A stretch of 64,000 bases of DNA, from the NCBI GenBank assembly GCA_037893245.1, contig JBAIAA010000102.1, positions 1,351,249 to 1,415,248 of the forward strand, in the 5' to 3' direction. Origin of the DNA: Crossaster papposus. Taxonomy: Eukaryota > Echinodermata > Asteroidea > Velatida > Solasteridae. The position numbers and the translations under genes are program-made. Under the pieces are notes generated by a model, which ran no database searches, was not told the origin of the DNA, and saw nothing but the letters and a program-made list of their open reading frames with translations. Shown here in pieces: positions 14,355 to 55,470 of this stretch. The stretch's first letter is position 1. Every line of letters starts with the position of its first letter.

Positions 14355-14600
14355 CGCTTGAAGTCGGCGCGAATGGGAAGTGCAACACGGCGGACCCAAG
14401 ACGTCACTTCTGTGAGCCAATGAAATGTCCAGGTGTAGAGGTCAGTGGATTTACTCTATACATTTTTTATTTATAAACATTACGTCATACGTACTGTACC
14501 CACTGAACCTTACACCTGGACATTTCATTGGCTCACAGAGTGATGTCGTGGGTCCGCCATGTTGCACTTCCAGTTCGCGCCGACTTCAAGTGTGAACAAG
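14355..14600. mobile_element. Hairpin MITE (GAAGTCGGCGCGAA family)
   Basis: About 98-bp arms 14358-14455 and 14497-14595 are inverted copies containing TTGAAGTCGGCGCGAA, GGCGGACCC and GCCAATGAAATGTCCAGGTG. A single arm of the same family lies at 42235-42335 in a receptor intron. Confidence 0.75.
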
Positions 14601-30212: not shown

Positions 30213-30499
30213 ATGGCAGTACACACATTGGCTTCTTACACCTTTTACACATAGTACGACTTTGCTTCCGCTTGGCTTTCGTACTACAAACGACACAGTT
30301 GCGCTTTTTGCAGTCCCTCGATGACCTTCACCCGGAACTCCAAGCTAGTTATTTGTTTGTTTGTAGGGATGCTGTACATTACTCGGACACTCTCGATAGA
30401 AGTGACAATTAATTGATTGTACATATTGGGCATATTACAGCTTACCTTTTATAAACGCCAGCACTGTCTATTAGTATTATCAGCTCGCTAGGTCCTCAA

Positions 30500-30762
30500 C
30501 TGAAAGGGCAGCCCATATGGGGCAGCCCATTTTGGGGCAGCCCATATGGGGCAGCCCATATGGGGCAGCCCATATGGGGCAGCCCATATGGGGCAGCCCA
30601 TATGGGGCAGCCCATATGGGGCAGCCCATATGGGGCAGCCCATATGGGGCAGCCCATATGGGGCAGCCCATATGGGGCAGCCCATATGGGGCAGCCCATA
30701 TGGGGCAGCCCATATGGGGCAGCCCATATGGGGCAGCCCATATGGGGCAGCCCATATGGGGC
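30500..30762. repeat. 14-bp minisatellite (GGGGCAGCCCATAT)
   Basis: About 18 almost perfect copies. The unit contains both GGGCAGCCC and CATATGG, so single strands can fold on themselves. Confidence 0.9.
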
Positions 30763-31024
30763 ATTGCCCATTGTCAAGCTTCACATAATTCCCACTTCCT
30801 TCTCGGAAACGTAACATGAAACCCCTTTTAAGTGGGAATTATGTGAAGCCTGACAAAACAACCCCTTGAACGTTATTTTTTGTTGACTCGACGACGAAGG
30901 TCAGGGCAGGTCTTCGTACCCAACATTTATTCCAGTTGTGATCAACATCCATTTGAACACTAACTAAAAAGTACATTTTCAATAAGAGTGTCTGCAATGC
31001 ACACACATTAGCTAAAAAGTACCT

Positions 31025-31480
31025 ATGGGATGGGCTGCCCCTATGGGATGGGCTGCCCCTATGGGATGGGCTGCCCCTATGGGATGGGCTGCCCCTATGG
31101 GATGGGCTGCCCCTATGGGATGGGCTGCCCCTATGGGATGGGCTGCCCCTATGGGATGGGCTGCCCCTATGGGATGGGCTGCCCCTATGGGATGGGCTGC
31201 CCCTATGGGATGGGCTGCCCCTATGGGATGGGCTGCCCCTATGGGATGGGCTGCCCCTATGGGATGGGCTGCCCCTATGGGCTGCCCCTATGGGCTGCCC
31301 CTATGGGCTGCCCCTATGGGCTGCCCCTATGGGCTGCCCCTATGGGCTGCCCCTATGGGCTGCCCCTATGGGCTGCCCCTATGGGCTGCCCCTATAGGCT
31401 GCCCCTATGGGCTGCCCCTATGGGCTGCCCCTATGGGCTGCCCCTATGGGCTGCCCCTATGGGCTGCCCATCCCATAGGG
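31025..31480. repeat. 18-bp then 13-bp minisatellite
   Basis: About 14 copies of CTATGGGATGGGCTGCCC switch at about 31265 to about 16 copies of the shortened unit CTATGGGCTGCCC. The 13-bp unit lacks the GATGG part of the 18-bp unit. Confidence 0.9.
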
Positions 31481-31579
31481 CATATGGGCATATCTGCCCA
31501 TATGGGCTGCCCATATCTATAATTCTAAGTAATAGACAGTGCTGGCGTTTATAAAGGGTAAGCTGATAATATGTTTGGT

Positions 31580-32879: not shown

Positions 32880-34646
32880 ATGTCAGACTATATTCCCAAT
32901 GCAAATTTTGACCTTGCTTTTGATTTCGACGATATCACTGACGATGAATTGATGGCTATGAATGAAAATGAGAGTCAAGAAGCAGAAAATAAAGAAAAAT
33001 ATGAAGAAAATCGGGCTGAAAGTGCTAGATTTGACCACCATGACTGATGCAGAGCTTTCAGCATTGGAAGGCCAAAAGAATGAGAAGAGCACCTCTTATG
33101 TTACAACATGGGGTGTGAAAATCTTGAGAGGTAGGTCTGAGAGTTTTTTGTTTTTACTTTATTGCTTAAGTATATGGTAAGGGCAATTTTATTATTTGGG
33201 GGTATTTTTCTGACATTTTAAAATAAAAAACAAGTAGCAAAGCTATCAAGCCATTATTTTATTTTGATTTGTTCAAGATTACTACAAAAAGAATGAATTA
33301 ATAAAATTAATGTAGGCCCCCCTAATCTATACTTGTGTACCAAACGATTGTATAAATGGACATGTATTTCTAGTTGTCCACACTTAATTTGATAAATGTT
33401 TATTTAATTGGCAGATTGGTGTCAGAGTGTTGGCGAAAGTCCAAATTTCGAAGGTCTCGATGTGATCGAGTTGGCCTCACTTCTGCGCCGATTCTATGCT
33501 GAAGCGAAAAAACAAGATGGAACAGCATACTCGCTACAGTCGTTAAGAGGAATGAGGGCTGCCATCCATCGCCACCTGACAAGTCCTCCTTACAGGCGCC
33601 CAATCAACATATTGCGGGATAGAGAGTTCTCTTCTGCCAACAACCTGTTCCAAGCAGTAATGAAGCGACTCAAGAGGGATGGAAAAGACCAAAGTCGACA
33701 CAAAAGTTCAATCAGGGCTGGGGACGTGCAGAAAATGTTCTCAAGCGGTGTGCTATCGCCATCCAATCCAACAAGTCTTCTGCGTATGGTTTGGTTTTAT
33801 ACCGAGCTGTTCTTCTGCAGACGAGGCAGAGAGGGCTTGGGTTCCCTGAAGAAGGATTCCTTTGCCTTCAAAACGGATGCAGATGGCAAAGAGTATGTCA
33901 CGATGACGCACAAGGAGGCAACCAAAAATCATCCCGGTGACCTGCAGCACGACTTTGAGGGAGAAAAGCGGATGTTTGCACAGCCAGGGAGCGATGTCTG
34001 CCCCGTTGCAGCTCTGAAGCTGTACCTGAGCAAGCTTCACCCAGGCCAGGAGGCTTTTTTCCAGCGGCCGTACTCATCAATGGATGAAGAAGCACATCCA
34101 TGGTACTACAAAGCACCACTTGACAAGAACAAAATCGGTACCATGATGAAGGACATCTCCAAAGAGGCCGAGTTGAGTCTGACATACACCAACCACTGCA
34201 TCAGAGCTACAGCAATTACAGCGCTGAATGAGGCAGGGTTGGACAGCCGCACCATCATGACATTGTCCGGTCACCGTAACGAAGCCTCCATCAAGCACTA
34301 CTGCCGTGATGCCTCCGACAAGCAGAAAGAGACAATGTCAGCTGCCCTCTACGACGTGGTTGATCCCGGCTTCAGCCGACGCTTCGCAGACGACACTTCA
34401 CTGCCACCGCTCACCGATGACAATTCGGGTCCACGGCCAACCACAGCTTCGACGGAGATCGCGACCGTGCCGCACAGCAGGGTCCCCGCTCTAAGTTCTA
34501 GTGTTGGGCCCCGTGAGTCCGTCGACTGCAATAACGTGGCCGTCAATCTGACGTCGATGTCAGCACAGGCCCTTTTTGCTAACTGTTCATTCACTGGCAA
34601 CGTCGTCGTGAATATGGCCCCACGAGCATCACCATCGTCACCATAA
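32880..34646 (+). CDS. Crypton-type tyrosine recombinase (DUF3504), two exons, probable frameshift
   Basis: Exon 33040-33130 joins exon 33415-34646 through AGAG/GTAGGT and TTGGCAG, restoring Asp in ILR-D-WCQS. From ATG 33040 this gives 440 codons. Catalytic residues are visible: Arg in CRRGREGLGSL (about residue 169), HxxR in TNHCIRAT (291/294), GH in LSGHRNEAS (317) and Tyr in KHYCR (326). This is the full R-HxxR-H-Y set of tyrosine recombinases. The N-terminal MTDAELSALE and the C-terminal LFANCSFTGNVVVNM are typical of Crypton-derived KIAA1958/ZMYM-like proteins. An acidic 55-codon frame from ATG 32880 (MSDYIPNANFDLAFDFDD) runs straight into this frame except for one extra C in CCACC at about 33034-33038. 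It is therefore either a frameshifted N terminus or a protein that starts at 33040. It could be a Crypton or a domesticated host gene. Confidence 0.75.
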
Positions 34647-38870: not shown

Positions 38871-40029
38871 TCATCCATCAGTCGTAGATGTGTTTTTTTG
38901 TGATGAGGGTGTGGTCTCAACTTTAATTTCTTCTTTCTTTTTCGATGATTTCTTCCGTTGTTTCTTGAGGCAAATGTCCAGGAAAGTGTAGAGATAAGGA
39001 TTAAGGGAGGAGTTGATAGGAAGAATGAAGACGACGCTCCAGACGAAGACCTCGGGATTGTTCTGGACAGCACCAGCCTGGAAGAGAATCCCCATGAGAA
39101 TGACGGGAATCCAACACATGAAATCTGTCATGACAATGGCCGCCATCTTGACCGCCATACGAACCTCGCTTTCGGCCCTCGCATTGCGGTTGCGCACTCG
39201 TCTGGCTGACACTTTGACTTTGACAAAGATGGCGACGTAGCATGCCAGAATAAGGCAGAAGCAGAATAGATTGACGCCTAAGAACAGAACGATAGAAAAG
39301 ACCCAGGTGGCAGACTGACTGGTAGGTACCGGTCTAGCGTAGGTCACTTCACCGATTCCTCCAATATTCACACCTTCTTCCCTTATCATAAGTCCTGCAA
39401 CTCTGGTGGTCAGCGGCAGACCAATGCAAACATCTGAGAGACCGTAAGCGTCAGACGTCTCGTCCGAAGCCAGAACGGTGGATACCACGGCAAGAATGAC
39501 TGTCAGGAGCCAGAACAAGCCCACGACAATCTTAGCTACCTTGGGAGTCAGACGGCGATTGGAGAAAAAAGGGAGAACGATAAACATAAATCTGGCGACG
39601 CTGATGAGGACTAAGAGAAACACGGACGCTTCGTTGGCCAAGATGGAGATGAAACCTGCCGCTTTACACGCGGCGCTGGAACGCCACTCGTCAGACACCT
39701 TGAAATAACGGCCCCCGTAATGTGCATCAGCCCCAGCAATGATCAACATGTACAAGCCCATCAGAGCATCGGCACCAGCTAGATTGAACACCAAGAAGGA
39801 ATTAATCACCACACCGGAACGGTTTCCAGTTTTCTCCCGCCACCTCCAAACCATAACGAAGAGATTGCCAAGGACCGCGCTGATGCCCAAGAACCACATG
39901 AAGACCTTCAAGACGTAATTGGATACCAGCTGACTACAGACAAAGAGTTCAGGAATCTCAAACCATTTCCTGCAACTTTCTTGTATTTCTGGCCCGAAGA
40001 AACAGCACAGGCGATAGTCGTTCGAGTAC
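38871..40029 (-). CDS. LRR-GPCR exon 10: seven-transmembrane domain and tail
   Basis: 1159 nt from acceptor GTGCGTTAG. TM1 VFMWFLGISAVLGNLFVMVW, TM2 VFNLAGADALMGLYMLIIAG, TM3 ISILANEASVFLLVLISVAR, TM4 IVVGLFWLLTVILAVVSTVL, TM5 VLFLGVNLFCFCLILACYVA, TM6 AAIVMTDFMCWIPVILMGIL, TM7 SVVFILPINSSLNPYLYTFL. The cytoplasmic tail is about 45 residues, very lysine-rich, then Ser/Thr-rich (possible kinase/arrestin sites). The open frame extends 5' to 40082, but that part is intron. Confidence 0.92.
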
Positions 40030-43000
40030 CTAACGCACAATTGAAACAAAAGTAAAGAATTATAAGCATTCTCCTTCACCATCAGCTACCAGGAGGTCAA
40101 GATCAGACTGGGATCTTTTGTTTAAAAAAAGAAAGAAAGAATCAAAACTGTTCGGGAAAAAAATGAGTTGAAAAGTTGAAACTGGAATTTCCAATGGTTT
40201 TTTTGCGCTTGCATAGTTATAAAGATTCGGTTCTGTCTTAGCCTTGGTCAAGGCGTTCATCGTTACCCGTCTGTACGTACAGCGCAGCGGTAATCGGAGC
40301 TCAAACAACGACCTCACGCGGCCACTATTATATGCAAAGTAACTGAAGATACTTGAACGCCTTGGATCATTGGTTAAGTTGAGGTTTTGGGGGCGATGCT
40401 CATTATGCTAATAGATTAAGCTGACCTTTATAGTCGTTTTCTTATTGGTCGATCGTTGCGTAGAAACTGCATAATTTGAGCTAGCGGTGAAAGGTCATAG
40501 CTAGCTCGCAAGTGTTTACGAACACCGCCATCGTTGACATATTTTATCGGAGAAAGTTGAGTGATTTTTACGAAGGCTTGTAGGAATTACACATGAAGAT
40601 TTGAACTGTCTTGCTTGATTGGTGAGGGTCGCAGTTATTTTCGCTCGTTTTGCTGGGTATTTTCTTGAATGTTGACAATGTTTTGGTCAAAACTAGTTGT
40701 GTTTAGCTACTTAGTTTTGAGTTTTCAACCGCGGTGACTGGAGAAGGCCGCGACTCTATTGAAACGTGTCGAACTCGGCCCTACATTATATCGCACGCAT
40801 CTAATCCAGCTGATCTGAAAACCGCGGAACTCTAATAATTAAATGCCTTGCCGGCTGAATTTTGCCAAGAAAATAATCTGAGGAGTTATTGAGGATATAA
40901 GACACTTGTCCCTGTTTAAATTACGATATTGCGATCACTTTGAAGGTTGGTTCTGCAGTCATAAACATGCCCCCTCCCCACAGCGTTGGACCATGCTTGG
41001 ACCATACAATGTGGCGATAACGCACAGACCAGCATGCCTGGGTTAATGCCGATTATGCGGCGATAAGAAACTGACCGAACACGCTGAAAACTGACGCTGA
41101 GTACCTGGCCGTACGTGCGAGCTCCGAGCAAAATGGGGCTCAGGCTGCCTGAAAAATGACGGATTTCCCATAACCTGTCGGCAAATTCACAAAAACACCG
41201 TGACCACGAAGAAAGGATTCTAATGGCCTTTCGCTGCTCGGGTCTAAAATCTTTGAGGGATAATATTTTTGCTGCAAAATTCAAACAACACGACAGATCT
41301 TCGGACGACAGACGACGCTGAATATCTGCCATTTTGTCTTAAATGTCATGCTGCATCAAATTTGATGACGTCGGGATTCAACCGCGTTGTGATTGGACAC
41401 TTCACATCTTAGCCCCGCCTATACTTAAATGTATTCGCATACGAGGTCATGCGCTGGAAATGTGGCGCAAAATATAGGAAAAACATAAGATTTCAAAAAC
41501 CCAATGATCCAAGGCGAAAAAGTAGCCTCATTTGATTTGCATAAATAGTGGCCGTATGAGGTCGCTGTTCGCGCTGTATTTTTGCACGGGGCGCAAGCTA
41601 GCAGCATATGCGGGGCGCGCGCACGGTGTATTTCTGGACGGATAACGACGGACGGATGACGACGAACTCGCCTTGACCAAGGCTAGTTCTGTCTAAATGT
41701 ACACGTATACTGAATTACAGTCGAAATTGGCACACTCACAGAAACGACAATCTGGACAATTTATCCTTGAAGACGTCGAAAGCACCGTCTTCAATTTCCG
41801 GTAGTCCGGAACTAGAGTTCATGTCCAAAATTGCCCTGAAAATAAGAAAATTTGAAAGAGAATTTGCCGATACCATGTGTGAAAACATGCATTTAAAATA
41901 GACAAACCAACACCTTTATAGAGAATAAAGGGTAATTTGTTATGCTTACAGTGTTTCCAAATTGCTGAGTCCGGCAAAGGCGTTGGCTTCGATTTTCCCC
42001 AGGCTTATACCAAATATAACACTACAGAAAAACAAAGGAGATTTGGAATTGAATATATACTTTTTAATTGTTTGTTGTGTATAACAGAACAACAAAACAT
42101 TTTCGTCAACAACACTTAAATGGACATCAGTTTAAATTTTAAAAAGCCACTAATGGTTAAACATTTGTAGCATTCAATTTCTGTAAATTCGTCTTATTTG
42201 GTGATACATGACCTCTACACATGGACGGATAATTGCCCATTCACGCTTGAAGTCGGCGCGAACGAGAAGTGCAACATGGCGGACCCACGACGTCACTTCT
42301 GTAAGCCAATGAAATGTCCAGGTGTAGAGGTCTACAGGTGTTTATGTAAAAGTTACGTCAACTACTTACAGCGAGGACAAACTGTCGAGCCCATCAAAAA
42401 CGCCATTCTTCAAATCTGATTCTGTATCACTTGTTGCCTGAATAACCCTACAAATAAAAGAGGGAATATGGATTGAATAATCAGTTTGAAATTATTGTTT
42501 GCTCTATCAGTTAGCATTTTCCGTGTGTTTTTCGATGTATTGCATCAAATTATTATGTATTATATCAAATATCAAGTTCTCAATTATACTACAAAACAAT
42601 GCCAACAAAAGTAGGTGAATAATGACAAATGCACCGACTGGGTGCGTAATCACCGAGCGGTTATAAGCACGGGACTCAAGCTCCAATGTCTCTGATCAGC
42701 ACAGAGTGTGGGTTGGAGTCTTGACACGTGTGTCCTTAAACAAGGCACCCAATCACTATTGCTTCGTCCTTCGGATGGGACGTAAAGTCGCGGGTCCCGT
42801 GTGTTGTGTAATGTGCACGTAAAAGAACCCATGCAGTAACACTTATCGCTAAGAGGAAGGGTTTGCCCCGGTGTTCCTGGCAGTGGCTGAAAAGTGCGCC
42901 GCAGCACCTTGTAAAAACTCTTACAAAGGTGCTACATAATGGGTCTCATTATTCTCATCAACTTCATTAACCTGTCTTTGAAAAATCATACAGCGCTTTG

Positions 43001-46000
43001 AAACACCCGTAAGAATTATGTGTAATGTATTATATTATTAATATTAAAGTGAGTAGATTTTCGTCCAGAAATCAAGGTTTTTCATCCAATTTATCGCAAA
43101 CCAACACAAATTTACTTACAACACCTTCAGCTGTTTAATGTTAGGAAACTTCTGGAAGGTCCCATTTTGAAGATTGTTCATGTTTACCCTGGATAAAAAC
43201 CTGTGTACAAATGTGTAGATGCGATTTATTGCGATATGTGCAATAATAATTGTGCATTAAGGATTATTATCGTACTGTTACAATTTGATTAATAATGAAA
43301 AAATTGTGATTGTACATTTTTTTAGGAGTTTATTATACGGGTATGGGTATGGGGGTCCGTTCAAGTTAGCAGTGTAATATACTGAAACGCAAAAGAAACT
43401 TACCACCTTTTAAACCTTTAAATAGCAACAATAACATTGCGTGTAGTAATGTGTGAACTTATTTGTGGACAATATTGTCCTTACTGTCAGATTAAACAGT
43501 GTCTGATGGTCACTTGAACCTTCAATGGTAGCTTCATGGCACAGCTGTTAAACAGCTGTTTTGACAGTCAGTGATTAGCCAAAGGGTATGGGATGATTGT
43601 AATGAGCTGCACGGAATGTCTTGATGTTGTTTTTAAAAAGGCCAGTGCAAAATGTGCATTTCAAGCAACATGCCACGATTGACAAGGGATCAACGGCAGC
43701 GTGCCCTGGGCATGCTGCATGGCGGACTGAGCTACCGTGAGGTGGCACGTCGTCTTGGCTGTTCACACCAGACGATATCGGCCCTGCTGGGCAGAAAAAC
43801 CCTCCACAACTCTGCAGATGACAGACCTCGATCAGGAAGAGTCATCACTGCAAGGCAGGACAGGCAGATGGTTCTAAGTCACCTTGCGGGATCGATTCCG
43901 TCCAGCACCCCGGACTGCAGCAGAAACTCCGGGGCGTGCAAATCCACGGATCTCTAATGATACTGCGCGAAGACGACTGCATGACTATGGTCTTATTGCC
44001 AGAAGACCATACAGATCGAGGCGCCGTGTTGACGGATGTCCATCGCGGCAACCGACAGAGATGGTGCCATCAGCATCAGCGGTGGACCTTGGCGCACTGG
44101 ATCATCCTGATGGGCGTTAGCGTGTCTGGAGAAGAACTGGCGAGCGATATGCCGATTGTTGCATGCGGCAAACCGACAGGTGGGGTGCCCCAAATGTGAT
44201 GGTGTGGGCCGCCATATCAGGCCGGTAACGGACGCCACTGGTGGTTGTGGATGGGAATCTTAACGCCCAGCGGTATGTGGATAACATCCTGCGACCTCAT
44301 CTGTTGCCATTCCTGCTAGACCACCCAGAACTGAGAACCTTTCAGCATGACACCTTTCAGCTCGTCCCCATGCTGCTCGCTTTACATCAACACCATGCAG
44401 TGGCCTTCGCTCTCCCCGACCTGAATCCCATAGAGCACCTGTGGGATGAGCTTGGGAGACGCGTAGTTGGCAGGGCCAGGACACGGGCAGAGCTGCTTCA
44501 GACATTAAGGACTGAGTGGAACAGAATCCAGCAGCAATCCATCCAAAGACTGGTAGGCAGTATATGCGCCGACGATGCACTGCCTGTATCCAAATCAATG
44601 GTGGCCACACACACTATTGAAGGGGAACTGACATTGCACCCTCTTCTGTTCTTTACTGTAGAACAAACTGATGAGATGGTGTATCTTGGTCAAAAACTTG
44701 ACATGTCATTAATAAAATGCCAATGTTTCAATTAGCAATTGTTGGTTTGTTTTAGTTTTAACTGTTACAATTTCATGACGTTTTAAACAAGTGGTAAGTT
44801 TCTTTTGCGGTTCAGTATAGTTCGTGTCCCTGTTGCATCTGACACAAAATCCATGTTTATATTCAGGACACAATCTATATGTGACGCCCACTAATACAAG
44901 ACAAGAGTATGAAATGTAAACAAGTTGGAAGTCCATTTCTATGGCACTTGCATAGAAAATTACACAGGTCATGTGTAACAGAGACGCTATAATTTATAAC
45001 CCCCCTGGGTTACCTAACGCACCCCCCCCCCCCCCTTAAAAACCCAAAGAGATTTCTTGAAAAACCACAACATTCAGCAACCACAATGACCACCACAAAG
45101 GAGGAGAGGGGGGGGGTGGGAGAGGGGGGGAGGAGGGGGGGGGGGGGGAGGAGAGGGGGGGGGGGGGGGGAGGAGAGGGGGGGAGGGGAGGGGGGGGGGA
45201 GGAGAGGGGGGGGGGGGGAGGGGGTGTTCCTCAGTCTTATTTTATATGCTAGAAGTGACACACTTCTGGACCCGTTATACAATGTATAGACTGGCCTGTA
45301 ATGTTCTATATTGCAACGTACAGGGCGTGTGTAGTATTCTCCAGTTTCGGCAGCACAAGGATATCGGGCAGGTACCATAGGCACAACACTCCCAAATCAT
45401 CACCTCTGACGCCGCAGCTACATACAGCGCTGATGTAGTTACACCTTCCTCTGCTAGGAGGTACAGGGCAGGACTGGGTTTCTGACGGATACAAACATTT
45501 AACTTTGGTATAAATATGCATAATTCGGGTAACAATTTACGAAGTGTTGGAAATAAATTGCCCACGATTGTCGGCAGTTAGTATTTTGGCCAAAGGCCAA
45601 TTTGCCCACCCGTTTTTTACGGTGATTAAGGGCCAAATGTCAAGCAATCTAGGTAAAGGTGGTTCTAAGCTGGTTTAGATGAGTTCATAAAGTGGCTATT
45701 AGCAATATCTTTCATAAGTATCTCATTACCCGAATACAAAGCCAATAAGGTTTCAACTTGTCGATGTTTACCAAAATCAATTCATTACCAATGTCATATT
45801 GCTGGTTGTCAGGGCATTTCAGACACGCAGACTCATCAAATCGGTCGTATTGCGAAGAGCCTGCAACCAATTGAGCCAAAAAAAAAAACATTGGAAAGAA
45901 CAAATCATAAATTCTAAATTATCTTATTGCAAAGTTTAAAACATCTTTTGAACATAGTTTCGTTATCGCTGAGTTGTGACAAACTGGTTTATCCCAGAAG

Positions 46001-47356
46001 CCTTTTTTTAAAGATCGCATACAAATTCAATGTTTTGTGCGCTTTAAAAAAAAAGAAATCACAGAGAACAGTGACTTATAAAATCAGTAAAGATAGCGTT
46101 AATTTACTTTCTCCGTTACTTACAATTCACCTGATCCGATTTGTCCTTGCAGTGCGCAATTCTATCGCATCTGGAACCATTACCCAAACAAGTTACGCCC
46201 TCGACTTGATTCACACATCGGAAATCATCTCTTCCGCAAAATCCTACACAAACAAAAGCACTATTTTGTTGTAATAAATTATAACAATACATAAAGCTTT
46301 AATATACATTAAATATACATGTAAAATAAATATGTAAATTAATATACATTATTTGCTAGTATTTATTTAGCTGCAGTCGGCTGAACGACAACGGTGATTG
46401 GGGCCGTAATTCAAATTGGTACTCAGCAAATTTGGATTTGAAATCGAAATCAGAGAATATCGTTTTCTCAGGATATGCAGCATTCACAGAGCAAAAACTT
46501 CATCAAGGAAGTTGTCAAACACATAGATTCCATTGCTTTTTTGAACACTTTTGCTGCTTAAGGCGATAAATAGACTCAACTGACAAATGATATACGATCG
46601 CGGGCAGTTTTAACTTGACTTTATCCTTCCGGCGCTCACCGTTTTCATTGATCAATTTTTCTTGCCTCACTCTCACTGAAAACCCTCGGCAGGACGACAT
46701 ATGATAACTCTGGAATTTCATCCAGGCCTCGTGGCCGTTTGACGTGACTCGAGCCCCGCCGACACCCGTCAAGTTCCCGGTAAAATCGGTGATGAAGTTG
46801 TCACGCACGATGGAGGCTATGTCCGAGACGTAGTTCCCGTTTCCGATTGCCAGTACGTCGTTTTCCGCCACCTCCATCACGTCGAAGTCGAAGGTGATCA
46901 CGGCTCCGCTGTCGACTCTGATGAGCCAGAAGCTGATGGTGTCGTCTGGGTAGAAGCCATGGGTGCCATCGGGGGACTTTAATGTCCACTCAGGAGCTTC
47001 TTCGGTCAATACAATCACATGAAGGCCGTCGGGAATCTGAGCTAAATTGGTGATATTTCAAGTGAATTAAAAATATATTTTAGATGGTATACGGTAATGT
47101 TTAGCCAAATGCCCCCCCCCCCCCCCCTTCCCCCCACCACCCCTTCCTTAAAACGTCACTGGTGAGAAAATGGCAACACCCACACTGAGTGTCGCGTGAC
47201 AAAGACACAAAGCAAAACACTTGACAAAACTTGATTTGTTTTTGGTAATGTTGGTATAACATACGACAATAAATTTAACAATTACTTACCTATTGAACTT
47301 TCCCATACGCAGAACAAAATGATCCCCAGGACAAAAATATATCTGTTCCCCAGCAT
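38871..47356 (-). CDS. CUB-LDLa-LRR G-protein-coupled receptor (GRL101/LGR-like), ten coding exons
   Basis: Exons (minus): 47356-47290, 47041-46640, 46243-46124, 45860-45789, 45481-45322, 43188-43120, 42447-42370, 42021-41950, 41835-41740 and 40029-38871. Every junction has GT/AG and matching phase. The total is 2295 nt, 764 residues plus stop. Order: signal peptide (1-22), CUB (about 23-150), LDLa (about 158-197), Cys-rich linker and LRR N-cap (197-273), about four LRRs (274-379, phase-2 exons of 69-96 nt as in LGR genes), Cys hinge SNDYRLCCFFG, then seven TM helices. FNLAGADALMGLYM (TM2), IVMTDFMCWIPVILMG (TM6) and NPYLYT (TM7) place it with glycoprotein-hormone/relaxin-type and GRL101 receptors. 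It acts at the plasma membrane; ligand unknown. The usual DRY at TM3 reads ARF. A GGGCCC MITE lies about 75 bp upstream of the ATG. Confidence 0.9.
40239..41685. mobile_element. MULE-like element in the receptor's last intron, 9-bp target duplication
   Basis: TAGCCTTGGTCAAGGCG begins both ends in inverted orientation, and similarity continues inward for about 200 bp (CGGCCACTATT, CCTTGGATCATTGG). GTTCTGTCT occurs directly outside each end (40230-40238, 41686-41694). Long TIRs with a 9-bp duplication point to the Mutator superfamily. It carries the helicase fragment at 41095-41332. Confidence 0.75.
41095..41332 (-). pseudogene. RecQ-type helicase N-terminal fragment inside the MULE-like element
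   Basis: From ATG 41332 the frame reads LSLKDFRPEQRKAI, the RecQ zero motif. After one apparent extra A in GCCATTAGAATCC the next frame continues SFLRGHGVFVNLPTGYGKSV, a Walker A box, and then stops after IFQAA. Domains downstream of motif I are absent. It is probably captured host DNA or the remnant of a helicase encoded by an autonomous parent element. Non-functional as it stands. Confidence 0.65.
41740..41835 (-). CDS. LRR-GPCR exon 9: last LRR
   Basis: 96 nt, phase 2 to 2: AILDMNSSSGLPEIEDGAFD then VFKDKLSRLSF. It joins the Cys hinge of the 7TM exon. Confidence 0.85.
41950..42021 (-). CDS. LRR-GPCR exon 8: LRR
   Basis: 72 nt, phase 2 to 2: VIFGISLGKIEANAFAGLSN then LETL. A textbook one-repeat LRR exon. 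Confidence 0.88.
42235..42335. repeat. Single arm of the GAAGTCGGCGCGAA MITE in receptor intron 7
   Basis: Matches one arm of the hairpin at 14355-14600 (CTTGAAGTCGGCGCGAACG, AACATGGCGGACCCACGACG, AATGAAATGTCCAGGTGTAG). The other arm is missing. Confidence 0.7.
42370..42447 (-). CDS. LRR-GPCR exon 7: LRR
   Basis: 78 nt, phase 2 to 2: VIQATSDTESDLKNGVFDGL then DSLSSL. A MITE arm lies only about 35 bp beyond its donor. Confidence 0.82.
42637..43045 (+). repeat. tRNA-derived SINE in receptor intron 6
   Basis: CACCGAGCGGTTATAAGCAC (A box) and GTGGGTTGGAGTCTTG (B box) form a tRNA-like head. A body with GGATGGGACGTAAAG, GTCCCGTGTGTTGTG and ACGTAAAAGAACCCATG follows, then a tail GCGCTTTGAAACACCCGTAAG with ATT-rich repeats. 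It lies between exons 6 and 7, antisense to the receptor. Confidence 0.7.
43120..43188 (-). CDS. LRR-GPCR exon 6: LRR
   Basis: 69 nt, phase 2 to 2: VNMNNLQNGTFQKFPNIKQL, a clear N-L-x(2)-G-x-F-x(3)-P-x-L repeat. Donor GTAAGT. Confidence 0.88.
43380..44817 (+). mobile_element. Tc1-like transposon in receptor intron 5
   Basis: The TIRs TACTGAAACGCAAAAGAAAC and the inverted GTTTCTTTTGCGGTTCAGTA are flanked by TA on both sides (43378-43379, 44818-44819). Size 1438 bp, typical of Tc1/mariner. Confidence 0.85.
43670..44650 (+). pseudogene. Tc1-type transposase, frameshifted
   Basis: The N terminus MPRLTRDQRQRALGMLHGGL plus SYREVARRLGCSHQTISALL is a paired-like HTH. Following frames give ISNDTARRRLHDYGLIARRP, then VVVDGNLNAQRYVDNILRPH and DLNPIEHLWDELGRRV, which holds the catalytic Glu of DD34E. 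At least three frame changes, and loss of residues around the second Asp and before DLNPIE, mean it cannot be active. Confidence 0.8.
45008..45230. repeat. Poly-C block and (GGGGAGGA)n tract in receptor intron 5
   Basis: GTTACCTAACGCACCCCC (also at 22463) is followed by about 120 bp of almost pure G/A on the plus strand. The run is strongly G-quadruplex/triplex-prone; on the transcribed receptor RNA it reads as C/U. Confidence 0.75.
45322..45481 (-). CDS. LRR-GPCR exon 5: Cys-rich linker and LRR N-cap
   Basis: 160 nt, phase 1 to 2, acceptor TATCCGTCAG, donor GTACGT. SCPVPPSRGRC, SAVCSCGVRGDDLGVLCLW and LPDILVLPKLENTTHAL match an LRRNT followed by the first LRR strand. Confidence 0.8.
45789..45860 (-). 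CDS. LRR-GPCR exon 4
   Basis: 72 nt, phase 1 to 1: the last LDLa Cys is completed here, followed by SSQYDRFDESACLKCPDNQQ. YD-FDE-C is the characteristic short Cys segment after LDLa repeats in GRL101-type receptors. Confidence 0.8.
46124..46243 (-). CDS. LRR-GPCR exon 3: LDL-receptor class A module
   Basis: 120 nt, phase 1 to 1: FCGRDDFRCVNQVEG, then VTCLGNGSRCDRIAHC and KDKSDQVNC. It has six cysteines and the terminal C-x3-SD calcium-cage pattern (D and S-D; the final E of SDE is Q). LDLa modules are disulfide-rich and bind calcium. Confidence 0.9.
46640..47041 (-). CDS. LRR-GPCR exon 2: CUB domain
   Basis: 402 nt, phase 1 to 1. It contains a CUB-like core: ITFDFDVMEV, ENDVLAIGNG, GARVTSNGHEAWMKFQS, SSCRGFSVRVRQ. 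The donor used is AACG/GTGAGC, which joins Gly to the LDLa exon. Reading on past it (to 46515) gives a basic tail and a stop, the likely unspliced artefact. Confidence 0.85.
47110..47160. repeat. Poly-C tract in receptor intron 1
   Basis: A C-run followed by CCCCCACCACCCC. Simple sequence. Confidence 0.8.
47290..47356 (-). CDS. LRR-GPCR exon 1: start codon and signal peptide
   Basis: ATG at 47356. The frame MLGNRYIFVLGIILFCVWES gives a short basic start and a hydrophobic core, then phase-1 donor AATAG/GTAAGT. The start is chosen because it is the only ATG giving a secretion signal in phase with the CUB exon. Confidence 0.85.
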
Positions 47357-50299: not shown

Positions 50300-51480
50300 G
50301 ATCCACAGGGTATTGTTATTTGCAATATTTAAAGAACTCATAATAAACATACATGATCCTATAATCATTCATTGCTTTTAGTTATTGTTAAAAAAAATCA
50401 GAATTGTCATTTTTTGGTCAAGTTCAGAAACCTGTAATAAGTATAGCTTTACACAATTTTATTTCCATCCCACTTAAGAAATTGCTGTCTTAGTGTTAAT
50501 TAATTAATTTTTAATTATTACGATTTATTCATTCATTCATGTCATCTGTTTGTATGCAACATCATTGTGCCAAAACTAAACAACCATAAATTGTAAAGCA
50601 GACACATTTTTTTATCAGACTTTGTATTTTAAACTTACTGTTTACAAAATGTATAATTGTTTAATTGTATTCATGTTTTTGATTGTAAAGCGCCTGGGAG
50701 CATTTTTAATGGATTGGCGCTATATAAGTGATCATTATTATTATTATTATTATTATTATTGATAAGTTCATTTTAATTGTGCAAAACGGTGAACGAGGTA
50801 ATAACTCTCATTATTTATGCAAATGAGCTGTGTATGAATTGATCTTTAGAATCACTGTTCGGTGTATTTGAGAAATACATGTACCTTTTAGAGACTAACA
50901 CAAAATATTGCAAAATATTAACAAAAAGTTTCAAAATGTGCAAAATCCTTACATTTTCCATTATTTTGGTAATTAATTATGCAAATTAATAATTAAACAT
51001 TCAGTTTTTTATTTAAAATTGTAGTAAATGATAAATAAGGGCATACATAATGTATGTACACAATTTAAATGATAAAAAATAAATAATTAAAGATTTATGA
51101 CAGAAAATGCTCCGTTTGTATTTTCTTGTTGCCATTGCCTGTATAAAGAAAAACATAGGAATATGTCAAAGGTCAACATCAAATTTTTCTCCTAATTTGC
51201 TTAAATAAAATTGACGTATTTTGAGAACCGCTTTGCCAATTTTGAAAAAAAACTACATTTTTAGAATGCTGAAGACATGCTCTTTCGCCTCATCTATGTT
51301 TTGAAGCTCTGTGTAATATATTTCAAAATCACCTGAAATGTGGATGTGATGATTGAATCTTTATGTAGAACAGTAACTTACCCTGAAAGTATAATGAAAT
51401 CTGGAAGCCAACTTTCGTGTGCATATGGTACGTACAGCCAAGCCAACTGTCTTCAAACTACGAACGTGTAGTCCTACAAT
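50300..51480. other. AT-rich, no gene; SINE-type tail at 50685-50762
   Basis: GTAAAGCGCCTGGGAGC, GGCGCTATATAAGTG and (ATT)n at 50740-50762 are the usual 3' end of a SINE/LINE family. The remainder shows no exon. Confidence 0.5.
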
Positions 51481-51502
51481 GATATCCAAATAAACCTTGT
51501 TT

Positions 51503-51680
51503 AATGACCTTGACCTACAGGAAGTTCACACGTACATCCTATGTACAGGCACAGTCGACTTTCGTTAGCACGACAAACTCAACCGAACCTAGCAAAAGTG
51601 TTTGCATATAAATGTAAAGTTGGGCCTGAGGCATTTTGGTTGTTACAAAATAATTTGCATATGAAGCAAACCATTGTGGT
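51503..51680. repeat. Local duplication, copy 1 (pair at 54383-54547)
   Basis: GACCTACAGGAAGTTCACAC, GTCGACTTTCGTTA and TTTGCATATAAATGTA are shared with 54383-54547. Weaker similarity continues to about 51830 and 54850 (GCTGGGTATACTG). The two copies flank the 52.07-54.3 kb duplicated block. Confidence 0.75.
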
Positions 51681-51756
51681 GGTTTCTCAAGCATTCTTTT
51701 CAGGTTTTTAGGGGGGTGCGTTAGTTAACAACTAAAGTCGGAGTGAATAGGTATGG

Positions 51757-52047
51757 GTGACTAAAGGGGAAGTCCCTCTGATGTCTCATAACGTGCTGGG
51801 TATACTGCACTTCTCTATTGTAACAGTACCCGGTACTCTGTATCCCATTTTCACGGAAATGCAAACAATCGATGCGGTCAAAAGAAAAATGTTTTCGCAC
51901 TTGAAACTTAAAGGGAGACTATTTCCAGGAAGCGCCCAAGGCTACAAAACGTGTTTTAAACGAAATGATGTTAATCCGAAGGAGCATTCAAAAGCAGAAT
52001 ATAAACATGTTTGGAGACATCAGTTAGGACCGATATTTTACCCATAG
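51757..52047 (+). CDS. Unrecognised 96-codon ORF (low confidence)
   Basis: An open frame containing KGEVPLMSHNVLGILHFSIV and KRKMFSHLKLKGRLFPGSAQ, ending just before the 45-bp satellite. It has no family resemblance that I know. Its first part lies in the weakly duplicated zone, where the 54.7-54.9 kb counterpart is not open. Confidence 0.15.
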   Translation: MTKGEVPLMSHNVLGILHFSIVTVPGTLYPIFTEMQTIDAVKRKMFSHLKLKGRLFPGSAQGYKTCFKRNDVNPKEHSKAEYKHVWRHQLGPIFYP

Positions 52048-52074
52048 TGCAGTACACTTTACAGTCAATAAATT

Positions 52075-52380
52075 GTAACACAATCGGTTAGTGATACAGT
52101 ATCGGTAAATTTGTGTGACATTATCGGTTAGTGGTACAGTATCGGTCAATATTATTTGTGTGACATTATCGGTTAGTGATACAGTATCGGTCAATATTAT
52201 TTGTGTGACATTATCGGTTAGTGGTACAGTATCGGTCAATATTATTTGTGTGACATTATCGGTTAGTGATACAGTATAGGTCAATATTATTTGTGTGACA
52301 TTATCGGTTAGTGATACAGTATCGGTCAATATTATTTGTGCCACATTATTGATTATCGGTTGGTGATACATTATCAGTTG
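52075..52380. repeat. 45-bp satellite, longer array
   Basis: About six copies of GGTTAGTGATACAGTATCGG with TTTGTGTGACATTATC, the same unit and entry sequence (GTAACACAATCGGTTAG) as 35503-35650. Confidence 0.85.
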
Positions 52381-52962
52381 TAACACAGATTGCAACGTTT
52401 TTTCCCCGTTAATTTAAACGAATATCCGTGTTGGTGTTGCCTACCGTTTCATTTTACAGGAACAAAATTATACTTTGAACAACAAATCAAAATGCATTTC
52501 AAGAAAACAAATTCTTATGCGCGTAAAAGGCTATACGTCACTTGACAGAGCAGCGTTTGCACATACATGTAAAACCATACATTACATACATAGATTTACA
52601 ATTCTATGATTTAATACATGTATTGTTAAGGTGCTGAAAATTTACATTTACATGTACACAAGACAGCATCAAATAACTAGCTGGCCGAGTGTCCAACCTT
52701 TACCGGCAGTCCAATGTACGGAGATAAACGGCAGTAAGAATTATTTTGTTAAAGAAATTAATCAAGCCTCGTGTGACCGCCCAGAAGAAAACCCTTTAAA
52801 CTCCACGAAAAATAGTCTTTAAACAGTGAATACGGTAAATCATGTGCCGAGAAATGGGTAAAACGTTGCAAAATGCTGAAACCTAAATGGGGGTCTGTCA
52901 AGCTGCGCATCCTTTTAACACAGTTTACAGCTAACAAAACACACCTTTCTGATTTTGTTTAA

Positions 52963-54275
52963 TTTTAGAGATTGTATTTTGTTGGCAGCTGTTGCATGGT
53001 TCTCTCGCATCTACTGACAATGCGTTGTTGAAGTGATTTTGCATATTAACCAAGCAGCTGGTGTAACTGGTAGTTTGGCGTAGTTTGAATAAAGTGTTCT
53101 CGGCCCTGTACTCTAAATATATTCTCTGTACATGAAATTGTGTCTGCCCTGATTAAACTAAACAGGCAGTTAAAAAAATAAAACACGAAATCACACAGAC
53201 ATTACGAACGGTGAATAAATGGGTTACTTCCCGTGGGGCTTCCAAGTATAGGAAAGGGAACAATGCGTGTTTTTCCTTTTTGCACGAAACTTTAATGAAC
53301 AACAATGAAATGGATAAAATCAGTATTTTACAGAAAAGGAACACCCTGTTGTCATAACAACACGTTTAACAGTTGTGCAACTGCTTAAAAGTAACAAAAG
53401 CTGCCCATTGATTGAGTAAAATATTGTACATTAATTGCTGCCATAATTATAGTTGCCCCACCTGAGCGTTTTCTACTATTTGGCGAAGAGCCTGAAGAAG
53501 GCTGTAGGTTAATAGTAAATAAAACTAAAATTAAAAAAACACATAAAACTACATCAATACACATACAAACACATATATAATACAAGATTATTTCTTAGGT
53601 TATCTTTCTTTAAATCTTTTTTTGGTACACGGCTTGTACTTAAAGGGATCGTATACGTTTGGTAATTACTCCAAAAATTAATGGCAATAAAAACCTACTT
53701 GGTAAGAAGTAGAGCAGCTTTGGATAGTATAATGCGTTTTTAGAAACTTTTCACTTCGAAGTACTGCGGTTATGGAAAAAGATATCACTTTTTATCCCCA
53801 AAAATTTGAATCTGAGAAGCGTTACTGCAGTGACGTTTCTCAGAGTGTTTATTCCAATGCAGATTATTTTTCCTGCGTGGACAAACCGCTCCAGAATTTC
53901 GGCAATATCTCAAAATCGCTACCACCTTTTGAAATGAAATTTGTACAGGTTAGTTTTATGGTATATATCTATAACTATATAGGACTGAAACAAACAATGG
54001 GTTCCAATTACCAAACGTATACGATCCCTTTAATTGTAAGTTTACTGAAGAAAGTTTTAAAAATAAAACCTGAAAATCTGAAAATCGCATAGGCCTATAT
54101 ACAATTAAAAAAAAAAAAAAATAATACGATTGGAAAAATAAGCGCTTCTAACCCAAGTCTGATATAATTATTAAAATGTACATACTCAAAAATATTTGTA
54201 TAAAGCAAAAAAAGAATCAAATTGATAGTTCAGTAGTTTTAAATTCCTAGTTAAAACATTGAGATTGATAATGTT
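52963..54275. repeat. Segmental duplication, copy 2
   Basis: Direct copy of 37699-38610, interrupted by the 386-bp MITE at 53644-54029. Similarity stops at GATTGATAATG, before the position corresponding to receptor coding sequence, so no receptor exon is duplicated here. Confidence 0.85.
53644..54029. mobile_element. 386-bp MITE with TTAA target duplication
   Basis: AGGGATCGTATACGTTTGGT and its inverted copy form the ends. TTAA flanks both sides (53640-53643, 54030-54033). The empty site GTACTTAATTG is preserved at about 38378 in the other copy of the duplication. TTAA targeting fits piggyBac- or Kolobok-type transposases. Confidence 0.85.
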
Positions 54276-54382
54276 TTGCGCTAATAACCACGGATCTTGC
54301 CGTATGTCCGCAGGGCCGGGCTTTGAGCGCTAGTATTAGTAGAAAGCGCGTAAAAGCGCTGCGTGGCTCAGGATGTATTTCA

Positions 54383-54547
54383 ATGACCCAGTTGACCTAC
54401 AGGAAGTTCACACGTACATCATAATATGTACAGGTACAGTCGACTTTCGTTAATACAAACTCAACCGAACCTAGCAAAAGTGTTTGCATATAAATGTAGA
54501 GTTGGGACCGAGGCATTTTAGTTAATAACAGAATTTGCATATGAAGC
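54383..54547. repeat. Local duplication, copy 2
   Basis: Counterpart of 51503-51680. A poly-G run follows at 54554-54573. Confidence 0.75.
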
Positions 54548-54579
54548 GGGAGCCGGGGGGGGGGGGGGGGGGGTATATA

Positions 54580-55470
54580 TTAGCCCACGAACCGCTATTA
54601 CAAAGTCATGTACGTTTTCTCAAACGCCGGCTCCGGTGCAAACATTGAATCCAGCTGCATTTTGTCAACCACGCATGCGTGAGACCAGACCCAACAAAGC
54701 CGGGATTTGGAAAAGACAAAACGTTACTGCAAGCGCTGGCGCGCGGCGCGAACGAACACAAGGATCTTGGGCAAGACTAGTCTAAAATCGGAGCGTATTA
54801 TGTATCATTTTATGCCAGCTGGGTATACTGTGCACGTACTTCTCTATACGATACTCTCTGTAGTGTATTTTACGTACACGGCTTAAAATAACAAAACCTG
54901 AATACAATAGGGGCCCGAGCTTTAAGGGCACATATTCACAGACATTTATGTCCTTTTAACAGGTTTCAAAAGTTCGGAGTGTTTAGCCGTGTTCGCACTG
55001 GATAAACATTTTGGGTAATTTGACCATGACGCCGGGTAACATTCCGATGGGTTAAACTACTCTTGTGACGTCACTCTATTCAGAAAAGTGTCGATTATTT
55101 TAAAGAATGTACAGTTAACTGTACATTATTTTAAGAATTAACAGAAAAAGAACGACTCAATGGACACAGAAATTGCTATTGTTATATTTATTACAACTTA
55201 CAATAGTAAGAGCTATGTTGACAGTTTATCTAGAGCTTTCAACAGTTAATTATCTTGGAGGTCTCTTTGCCGTGTCGACGCGCTTATGCGGTTTCAGCCC
55301 GGCTGACTGCTCTCCTATGGTCCTCACTGGTTCTGGCCACCGAAGCCCTTGTTGTAGAGACGAGATGCTGCCATGCTCGATCGTATGGAGTGGTTCGTCC
55401 AAAAGCCTTGTTGCACAGATTTGCCACAACCTGGGATATCAACAATAACAAAAATAAAACTAGAAATGTG
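54580..55470. other. No gene recognised
   Basis: Contains GCCGTGTTCGCACTGGATAAAC at about 54990 (MITE-terminus word). Overlapping short frames on both strands at 55173-55518 lack homology. Confidence 0.4.

Follow-up and report, generated by a model that had tools for sequence, protein, structure and literature searches.

A CUB-bearing LGR-type receptor gene of the sea star Crossaster papposus and its expanded family of related loci

We analysed a stretch of 64,000 nucleotides, hereafter the window, that forms the final 64 kb of contig JBAIAA010000102.1 (C102) in a genome assembly of the sea star Crossaster papposus (GCA_037893245.1; 1,023,315,904 bases in 1841 contigs). On its minus strand lies a ten-exon gene, starting at position 47356 and stopping at 38871 (Table 1), for a predicted protein of 768 residues with the order signal peptide, CUB domain, LDLa module, Cys-rich LRRNT-like region, short leucine-rich repeat (LRR) block and seven-transmembrane (7TM) domain. 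The gene is one among roughly thirty related loci of the assembly and not a one-off. It was rebuilt from the letters of the window and then checked against copies within the same assembly, so that a single genome is covered.

All nine introns have GT/AG ends and the phases agree across all nine junctions. The ten exons, nine GT/AG introns, agreeing phases and start codon at 47356 given in a preliminary description of the window were thus recovered on rebuilding, and the introns recur in all six near-identical copies considered below. Its total of 765 codons including the stop (764 residues) had to be revised: the supported coding sequence comprises 2307 nt, or 769 codons including the stop, and the window frame is open through all 768 codons. 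Placing the start of exon 6 at 43188 instead of 43200 yields 765 codons (2295 nt), which is our reconstruction, the exon list behind that total not having been given. We rejected the acceptor at 43188, 12 bases later, whose AG reads GG in six of six copies; that at 43200 is conserved in all six, and the earlier protein is four residues short because the acceptor it implies is absent from the copies. Read from 43200, exon 6 gives a repeat of 25 residues, which aligns by eye, position by position, with the repeat of exon 8. Two treatments of exon 5 were also rejected, a nine-exon model without it, which produces a phase clash at exon 6 and a total that is not a multiple of three, and a 148-nt version, which has no GT donor; the 160-nt version was adopted. 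Exons 6 to 10 are all entered in phase 2, and exons 6 to 9 hold one repeat each (25, 27, 25 and 30 residues). One repeat per exon, separated by phase-2 introns, is the arrangement of the LRR block of type C LGRs (leucine-rich repeat-containing G protein-coupled receptors).

In the Pfam search that the preliminary description had proposed, run here with the 768-residue protein, 7tm_1 (E = 4.1e-27) and CUB (E = 7.6e-5; 23.4 bits against a cut-off of 21.4) passed, while LRR_8 (E = 5.1e-4) and Ldl_recept_a (E = 0.0061) remained under the cut-off but in the expected order. The best solved structure was human RXFP1 (7tmw), with E = 3.9e-40 over the LRRs and the 7TM domain; RXFP1 also gave a weak colinear match across the LDLa module and the LRRs, and glycoprotein hormone receptors were next best. 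Exon 10 alone likewise matched RXFP1 first and then glycoprotein hormone receptors. Together, the Pfam and RXFP1 matches uphold the combination originally put forward, namely a CUB, one LDLa, a short LRR block and an LGR-type 7TM domain. CUB domains have conserved disulphide cysteines; that of the window has only one cysteine, that is, it does not show this conserved set, and its sequence marks it as a degenerate CUB. Among the other CUB rows of the family alignment, both cysteines of the first pair are present in 7 of 10 and the second one in 9 of 10.

The six near-identical copies are distributed over three contigs, with one on C613, three on C571 (plus a fragment at 14455) and two on C775. 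Their 7TM proteins are 92–97% identical to that of the window, as is the LDLa exon in six of six. In every copy the nine introns lie at identical positions with AG/GT ends, and because all nine recur in six of six near-identical copies the gene stands far beyond chance. Differences in exon length between the copies and the window are multiples of three, save for three lesions (C571_18k exon 10, +2; C775_16k exon 10, −5; C775_7k exon 1, −2), and the CUB exon of C775_7k is broken by 39 additional bases and in-frame stops. Three frames, those of the window, C613 and C571_27k, are fully open; that of C571_2k terminates four codons ahead of the usual stop, the frame of C775_16k is shifted close to the C-terminus and C571_18k carries a frameshift within the 7TM domain. 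Measured against three copies, divergence amounts to 7–9% in introns and 4.6–4.9% in exons. That the copies are mere alleles is disfavoured by the 7–9% intron divergence and by the presence of several copies per contig. We conclude that the gene is real and apparently working.

A protein search of the assembly with the 7TM exon returned at least 75 matches, and the 30 best loci, window included, match most of the exon at 46–100% identity. In a 7TM tree of 39 rows (36 different), of which three are named and none is identified as type B, and whose branches are long, the 30 loci form one clade (support 97/95), which is joined by C551 (100/100). Outside it stand C398 and C307_289k, then RXFP1 together with C907, then the FSHR/LHCGR side. 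The family appears nearer to the RXFP1/C907 side than to FSHR/LHCGR, in a tree whose few named outgroups and long branches do not allow the root to be settled. Three pairs of loci are identical in the tree (C169/C1294, C11/C470 and C219_433k/C734) and may be haplotypes, in which case the number of genes would be lower than 30. LDLa exons lie 18 kb ahead of C398, and on C15 and C157 RXFP1-like 7TM pieces are repeated four and three times, respectively, with a break around query residues 150–192 that is perhaps the intron in the second transmembrane helix (TM2) of RXFP/LGR3 genes; these are perhaps duplicated relaxin-type receptors or two haplotypes.

CUB searches of the assembly gave 21 matches with the window CUB and 101 with a CUB of C776. 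One CUB is present in the window gene and in each of its six copies, that of C775_7k being broken. We examined 26 other loci (23 of the clade together with C79, C1151 and C551) for a CUB up to 25 kb upstream on the same strand, and found one in nine (C776, C169, C1294, C177, C222, C632, C307_804k, C58 and C307_784k), compared with about 0.03 expected under uniform placement. All nine fall in the 30-locus clade, so that, with the window and the six copies, a CUB is detected at 16 of its 30 loci. A Pfam check took in six of the nine loci, leaving out C169, C1294 and C177: the CUB exons from five of them and from C1326 passed the cut-off in eight of eight cases, and C776 passes too. The CUB of C1326 lies 42 kb from its 7TM and was excluded from the count. 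At least four CUBs are present in C776 and again in C222, and LDLa exons over the cut-off are situated close to the CUBs of C58 and C307_784k and are also present in C776. Repetition of CUB and LDLa modules is thus seen in several members, and the window gene is a short form. A search with the window LDLa exon matched only the window and its six copies, and the 9.9-kb stretch holding the C169 7TM exon (L015) yielded no CUB or LDLa, the C169 CUB matches being situated about 21 kb upstream. CUB matches scoring the same as those of C169, C1294 and C177 also occur on C612, C720, C1105 and C1221, with no 7TM match there among the matches listed; these are maybe a duplicated or secreted CUB gene.

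Ratios of non-synonymous to synonymous change (Ka/Ks) were obtained by Nei–Gojobori type counts for the window against C613, C571_27k, C571_2k, C571_18k and C775_16k, the order in which values are listed here; L013, in which the CUB is broken, was excluded. The CUB exon gave 1.21, 1.20, 0.79, 1.24 and 1.11 and the LRRNT exons 1.04, 0.89, 0.96, 1.19 and 0.79. Values for LDLa were 0.34, undefined (zero synonymous changes), 0.12, 0.08 and 0.08, for the LRRs 0.26, 0.53, 0.33, 0.32 and 0.28, and for the 7TM exon 0.33, 0.45, 0.32, unreadable (frameshift) and 0.47, the last including the shifted tail of L014. A pooled 7TM ratio was not used, being spoilt by the frameshifted copy L011, and exon 1 (signal peptide), with 0.44–0.95 over few sites, was kept out of the grouping. 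The LDLa, LRR and 7TM exons are thus constrained and CUB and LRRNT evolve near the neutral rate. For the outer part, the ratios fit relaxed constraint as well as diversification. Such a variable outer part joined to a constrained signalling part suggests that the copies differ in recognition and share one output.

At the DRY site, which we take to be positions 3.49–3.51 of the family alignment, the window and its six copies read ARF, C776 reads NRF and six loci read DRF or DRY; in the same alignment RXFP1 has EKY, and FSHR and LHCGR have ERW. Sixteen of the 30 family loci, their 7TM frames open, carry Cys or Ser in place of Arg3.50. This arginine is widely conserved in class A receptors, and loss of Asp/Glu3.49 is linked to raised basal activity. 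Raised basal activity would therefore be expected of the window receptor, in which position 3.49 is Ala and Arg3.50 is retained.

Judged from its sequence, the window receptor would work like a type C LGR in the broad sense. Type C LGRs bear LDLa modules (PMC11863921) and, as in RXFP1, RXFP2 and RXFP/LGR3 (type C1), the window gene has one LDLa followed by LRRs, a hinge and an LGR 7TM domain. Compared to RXFP/LGR3, it adds a CUB, has four LRR exons and encodes the 7TM in one exon without the phase-1 TM2 intron described for those genes (PMC11863921); as the intron that marks them is absent, it is not RXFP/LGR3. It also reads ARF where RXFP1 reads EKY. The LGR4-type (dilp7) receptors of echinoderms, again type C, share the absence of the TM2 intron and have one or two LDLa modules, but no CUB is described for them in the available text of PMC11863921, the comparison being by description only. 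GRL101 (type C2) shares the type C ectodomain of LDLa and LRRs, and is reported with 12 LDLa modules in Lymnaea (PMC8286064) and six in the crown-of-thorns starfish (PMC6267866). Because GRL101 is defined by many LDLa repeats and the window gene has a single LDLa exon, it is not GRL101, for which no CUB is described in the parts of these papers at hand. The difference from RXFP1/2 and from many-LDLa GRL101 that had been noticed at the outset is thereby borne out by the layout, with a CUB present and one LDLa. Glycoprotein hormone receptors (type A) have the LGR 7TM in common, with a moderate match, but differ at the DRY site (ERW) and occupy a separate tree branch; we know of none with an LDLa or a CUB. 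No description of a CUB-bearing LGR family was met in the literature searched, most subscription papers lying outside that search.

Our preferred reading, to which we assign a probability of roughly 0.55, is that the sequence encodes an orphan class-A LGR, nearest to type C (relaxin-receptor-like), within an expanded birth-and-death family of this sea star. An ordinary insulin/relaxin-like hormone receptor with an internal ligand, of GRL101 or LGR4 type that gained a CUB, would account for a 7TM domain closest to RXFP1 among solved structures and for an LDLa module, typical of type C LGRs (PMC11863921), and in the available text of PMC9759900 the crown-of-thorns starfish is reported to have four relaxin-receptor-like genes, of which three fall in echinoderm-specific clades. 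We nevertheless consider this alternative unlikely: Veenstra reports that an ambulacrarian species has a single ortholog of each hormone-type LGR (PMC8286064), compared with 30 close loci here, the window LDLa is single and not many, and the family branches outside RXFP1 and the RXFP-like locus C907.

For the preferred orphan LGR, the signal peptide would send the receptor to the cell surface, where the CUB and the Cys-rich LRRNT would face outward and, with the LRR block, may bind a putative protein or peptide ligand. The LDLa module would act on the 7TM domain, by analogy with RXFP1, and the 7TM domain would couple to a G protein; its basal activity may be raised. Given tandem birth and death and a variable outer part, an outward-facing role (chemical cues, gametes or microbes) is plausible. 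It is possible, as an alternative explanation, that the loci form a chemosensory, pheromone or gamete-recognition repertoire of tube feet, tentacles or gametes in which CUB and LRRNT tune each copy, as near-identical copies, several in tandem and some broken, with outer exons that evolve faster than the 7TM would suggest. Putative olfactory receptors of starfish are arranged in tandem arrays and, like the sea-urchin surreal-GPCRs (G protein-coupled receptors), belong to class A and have expanded in tandem (PMC5442662); for the crown-of-thorns starfish, differential expression of a GRL101-like receptor in sensory organs is reported (PMC6267866, from the text available). The proposal is drawn from genome sequence only, however, and an ectodomain of the window kind goes undescribed in the main text of the paper on starfish olfactory receptors, where 'leucine', 'CUB' and 'LDL' do not occur (PMC5442662).

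Table 1. Exons of the receptor gene and other features of its locus (window positions)
Feature	Coordinates	Strand	Description
Exon 1	47290..47356	-	Start codon and signal peptide (MLGNRYIFVLGIILFCVWESSI); donor GTAAGT in 6/6 copies; hydrophobic residues 7-25
Exon 2	46640..47041	-	CUB domain without first cysteine pair; Pfam CUB match over residues 42-146, and alignment
Exon 3	46124..46243	-	Single-exon LDLa with six cysteines; Pfam below cut-off; weak local match to RXFP1 LDLa
Exon 4	45789..45860	-	Start of Cys-rich LRRNT-like region; splice sites in 6/6 copies
Exon 5	45322..45481	-	Cys-rich LRRNT-like, 160 nt; donor GTACGT in 6/6 copies
Exon 6	43120..43200	-	LRR 1; acceptor 43200
Exon 7	42370..42447	-	LRR 2; Pfam and copies
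Exon 8	41950..42021	-	LRR 3; Pfam and copies
Exon 9	41740..41835	-	LRR 4; Pfam and copies
Exon 10	38871..40029	-	Hinge, complete intronless 7TM, C-terminal tail, stop; 7tm_1; RXFP1 E = 4.4e-34 (exon alone)
Transposon, intron 5	43381..44816	.	25-bp inverted ends (one mismatch), TA target, helix-turn-helix open reading frame on +; absent from six copies
Element, intron 9	40239..41685	.	17-bp terminal inverted repeats, 9-bp target duplication; absent from six copies
Spacer pieces	51339..54984	.	Same spacer separates the copies on C571 and C775 and flanks the C613 copy

Two introns of the window copy hold mobile elements (Table 1). We take the transposon in intron 5 to be Tc1-like; the element in intron 9 has an open reading frame (40916–41338) that resembles a RecQ-type helicase piece by eye only, with no Pfam match. 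Elsewhere in the window, a 412-residue open reading frame on the plus strand (33408–34646) matches DUF3504 and phage integrase (tyrosine recombinase) and presumably belongs to a Crypton-like or related mobile element, LDL-receptor class B repeats on the minus strand (53–361 and 950–1453) are part of an LRP-like gene near the window start, and a long minisatellite-like stretch (30455–31554) has open frames with MGWAAP- and GQPIWGS-type repeats. In the wider assembly, contig C1841 (16,330 bases) is mitochondrial and points to a sea star: its COX1 frame gives STNHKD under genetic code table 9, against STKHKD under table 5, and its genes stand in the asteroid order, with nad1 and nad2 reversed. 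The 5.3-Mb contig C8 (L049, L051, L052) has COX1 matches at two places in intronless, standard-code frames and is probably a bacterial chromosome within the assembly.

Several points weigh against the preferred reading of an expanded, working LGR family. At 17 of the 26 other loci, among them the whole C584-to-C258 branch of 11 rows, no CUB was detected, the LDLa and LRR_8 scores stay under the Pfam cut-off, and an AlphaFold prediction of the CUB exon alone from a single sequence gave an unusable model (mean confidence score, pLDDT, 34). C613 compared with C571_27k gave a CUB Ka/Ks of 0.57 (LRRNT 3.32). Fisher tests of CUB and LRRNT against LDLa, LRR and 7TM in four pairs (p = 0.0056, 0.12, 0.017 and 0.0019) involve pairs that share branches and are not independent, with an exon grouping chosen post hoc. 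The single-cysteine CUB may simply be in decay, and two of the seven copies are clearly broken. Most copies, that of the window included, could accordingly be degenerating duplicates, the unexpressed leftovers of a repeat-driven expansion, in line with these two copies, the fragment at C571:14455, the two transposon insertions in window-copy introns and a CUB Ka/Ks of about 1; the open frame of 768 codons, the retention of all splice sites and the constraint on LDLa, LRR and 7TM make this quite unlikely. Finally, the gene model, and with it the joining of its exons, is known from genomic sequence alone, as would also hold for two adjacent genes wrongly joined, one for a secreted CUB-LDLa protein and one for a separate LRR-7TM receptor. 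That arrangement is highly improbable in view of the agreement of phases at nine junctions, the identical exon order in all seven copies and the CUB exons upstream of the 7TM at nine other loci.

Beyond the preferred reading, we advance tentatively, as a somewhat doubtful extension, that the family is a fast-turning, LGR-derived repertoire of sea stars in which CUB and LDLa modules were shuffled before the LRRs, CUB and LRRNT are diversifying and the class-A switch is eroded. Derived from a hormone receptor, its members would serve to recognise cues, gametes or microbes and would signal in an altered way or in part independently of G proteins. An expanded CUB-bearing, LGR-derived family would be an example of a hormone receptor that became a repertoire; its loci would provide a natural series of DRY-site variants for testing the role of that switch.

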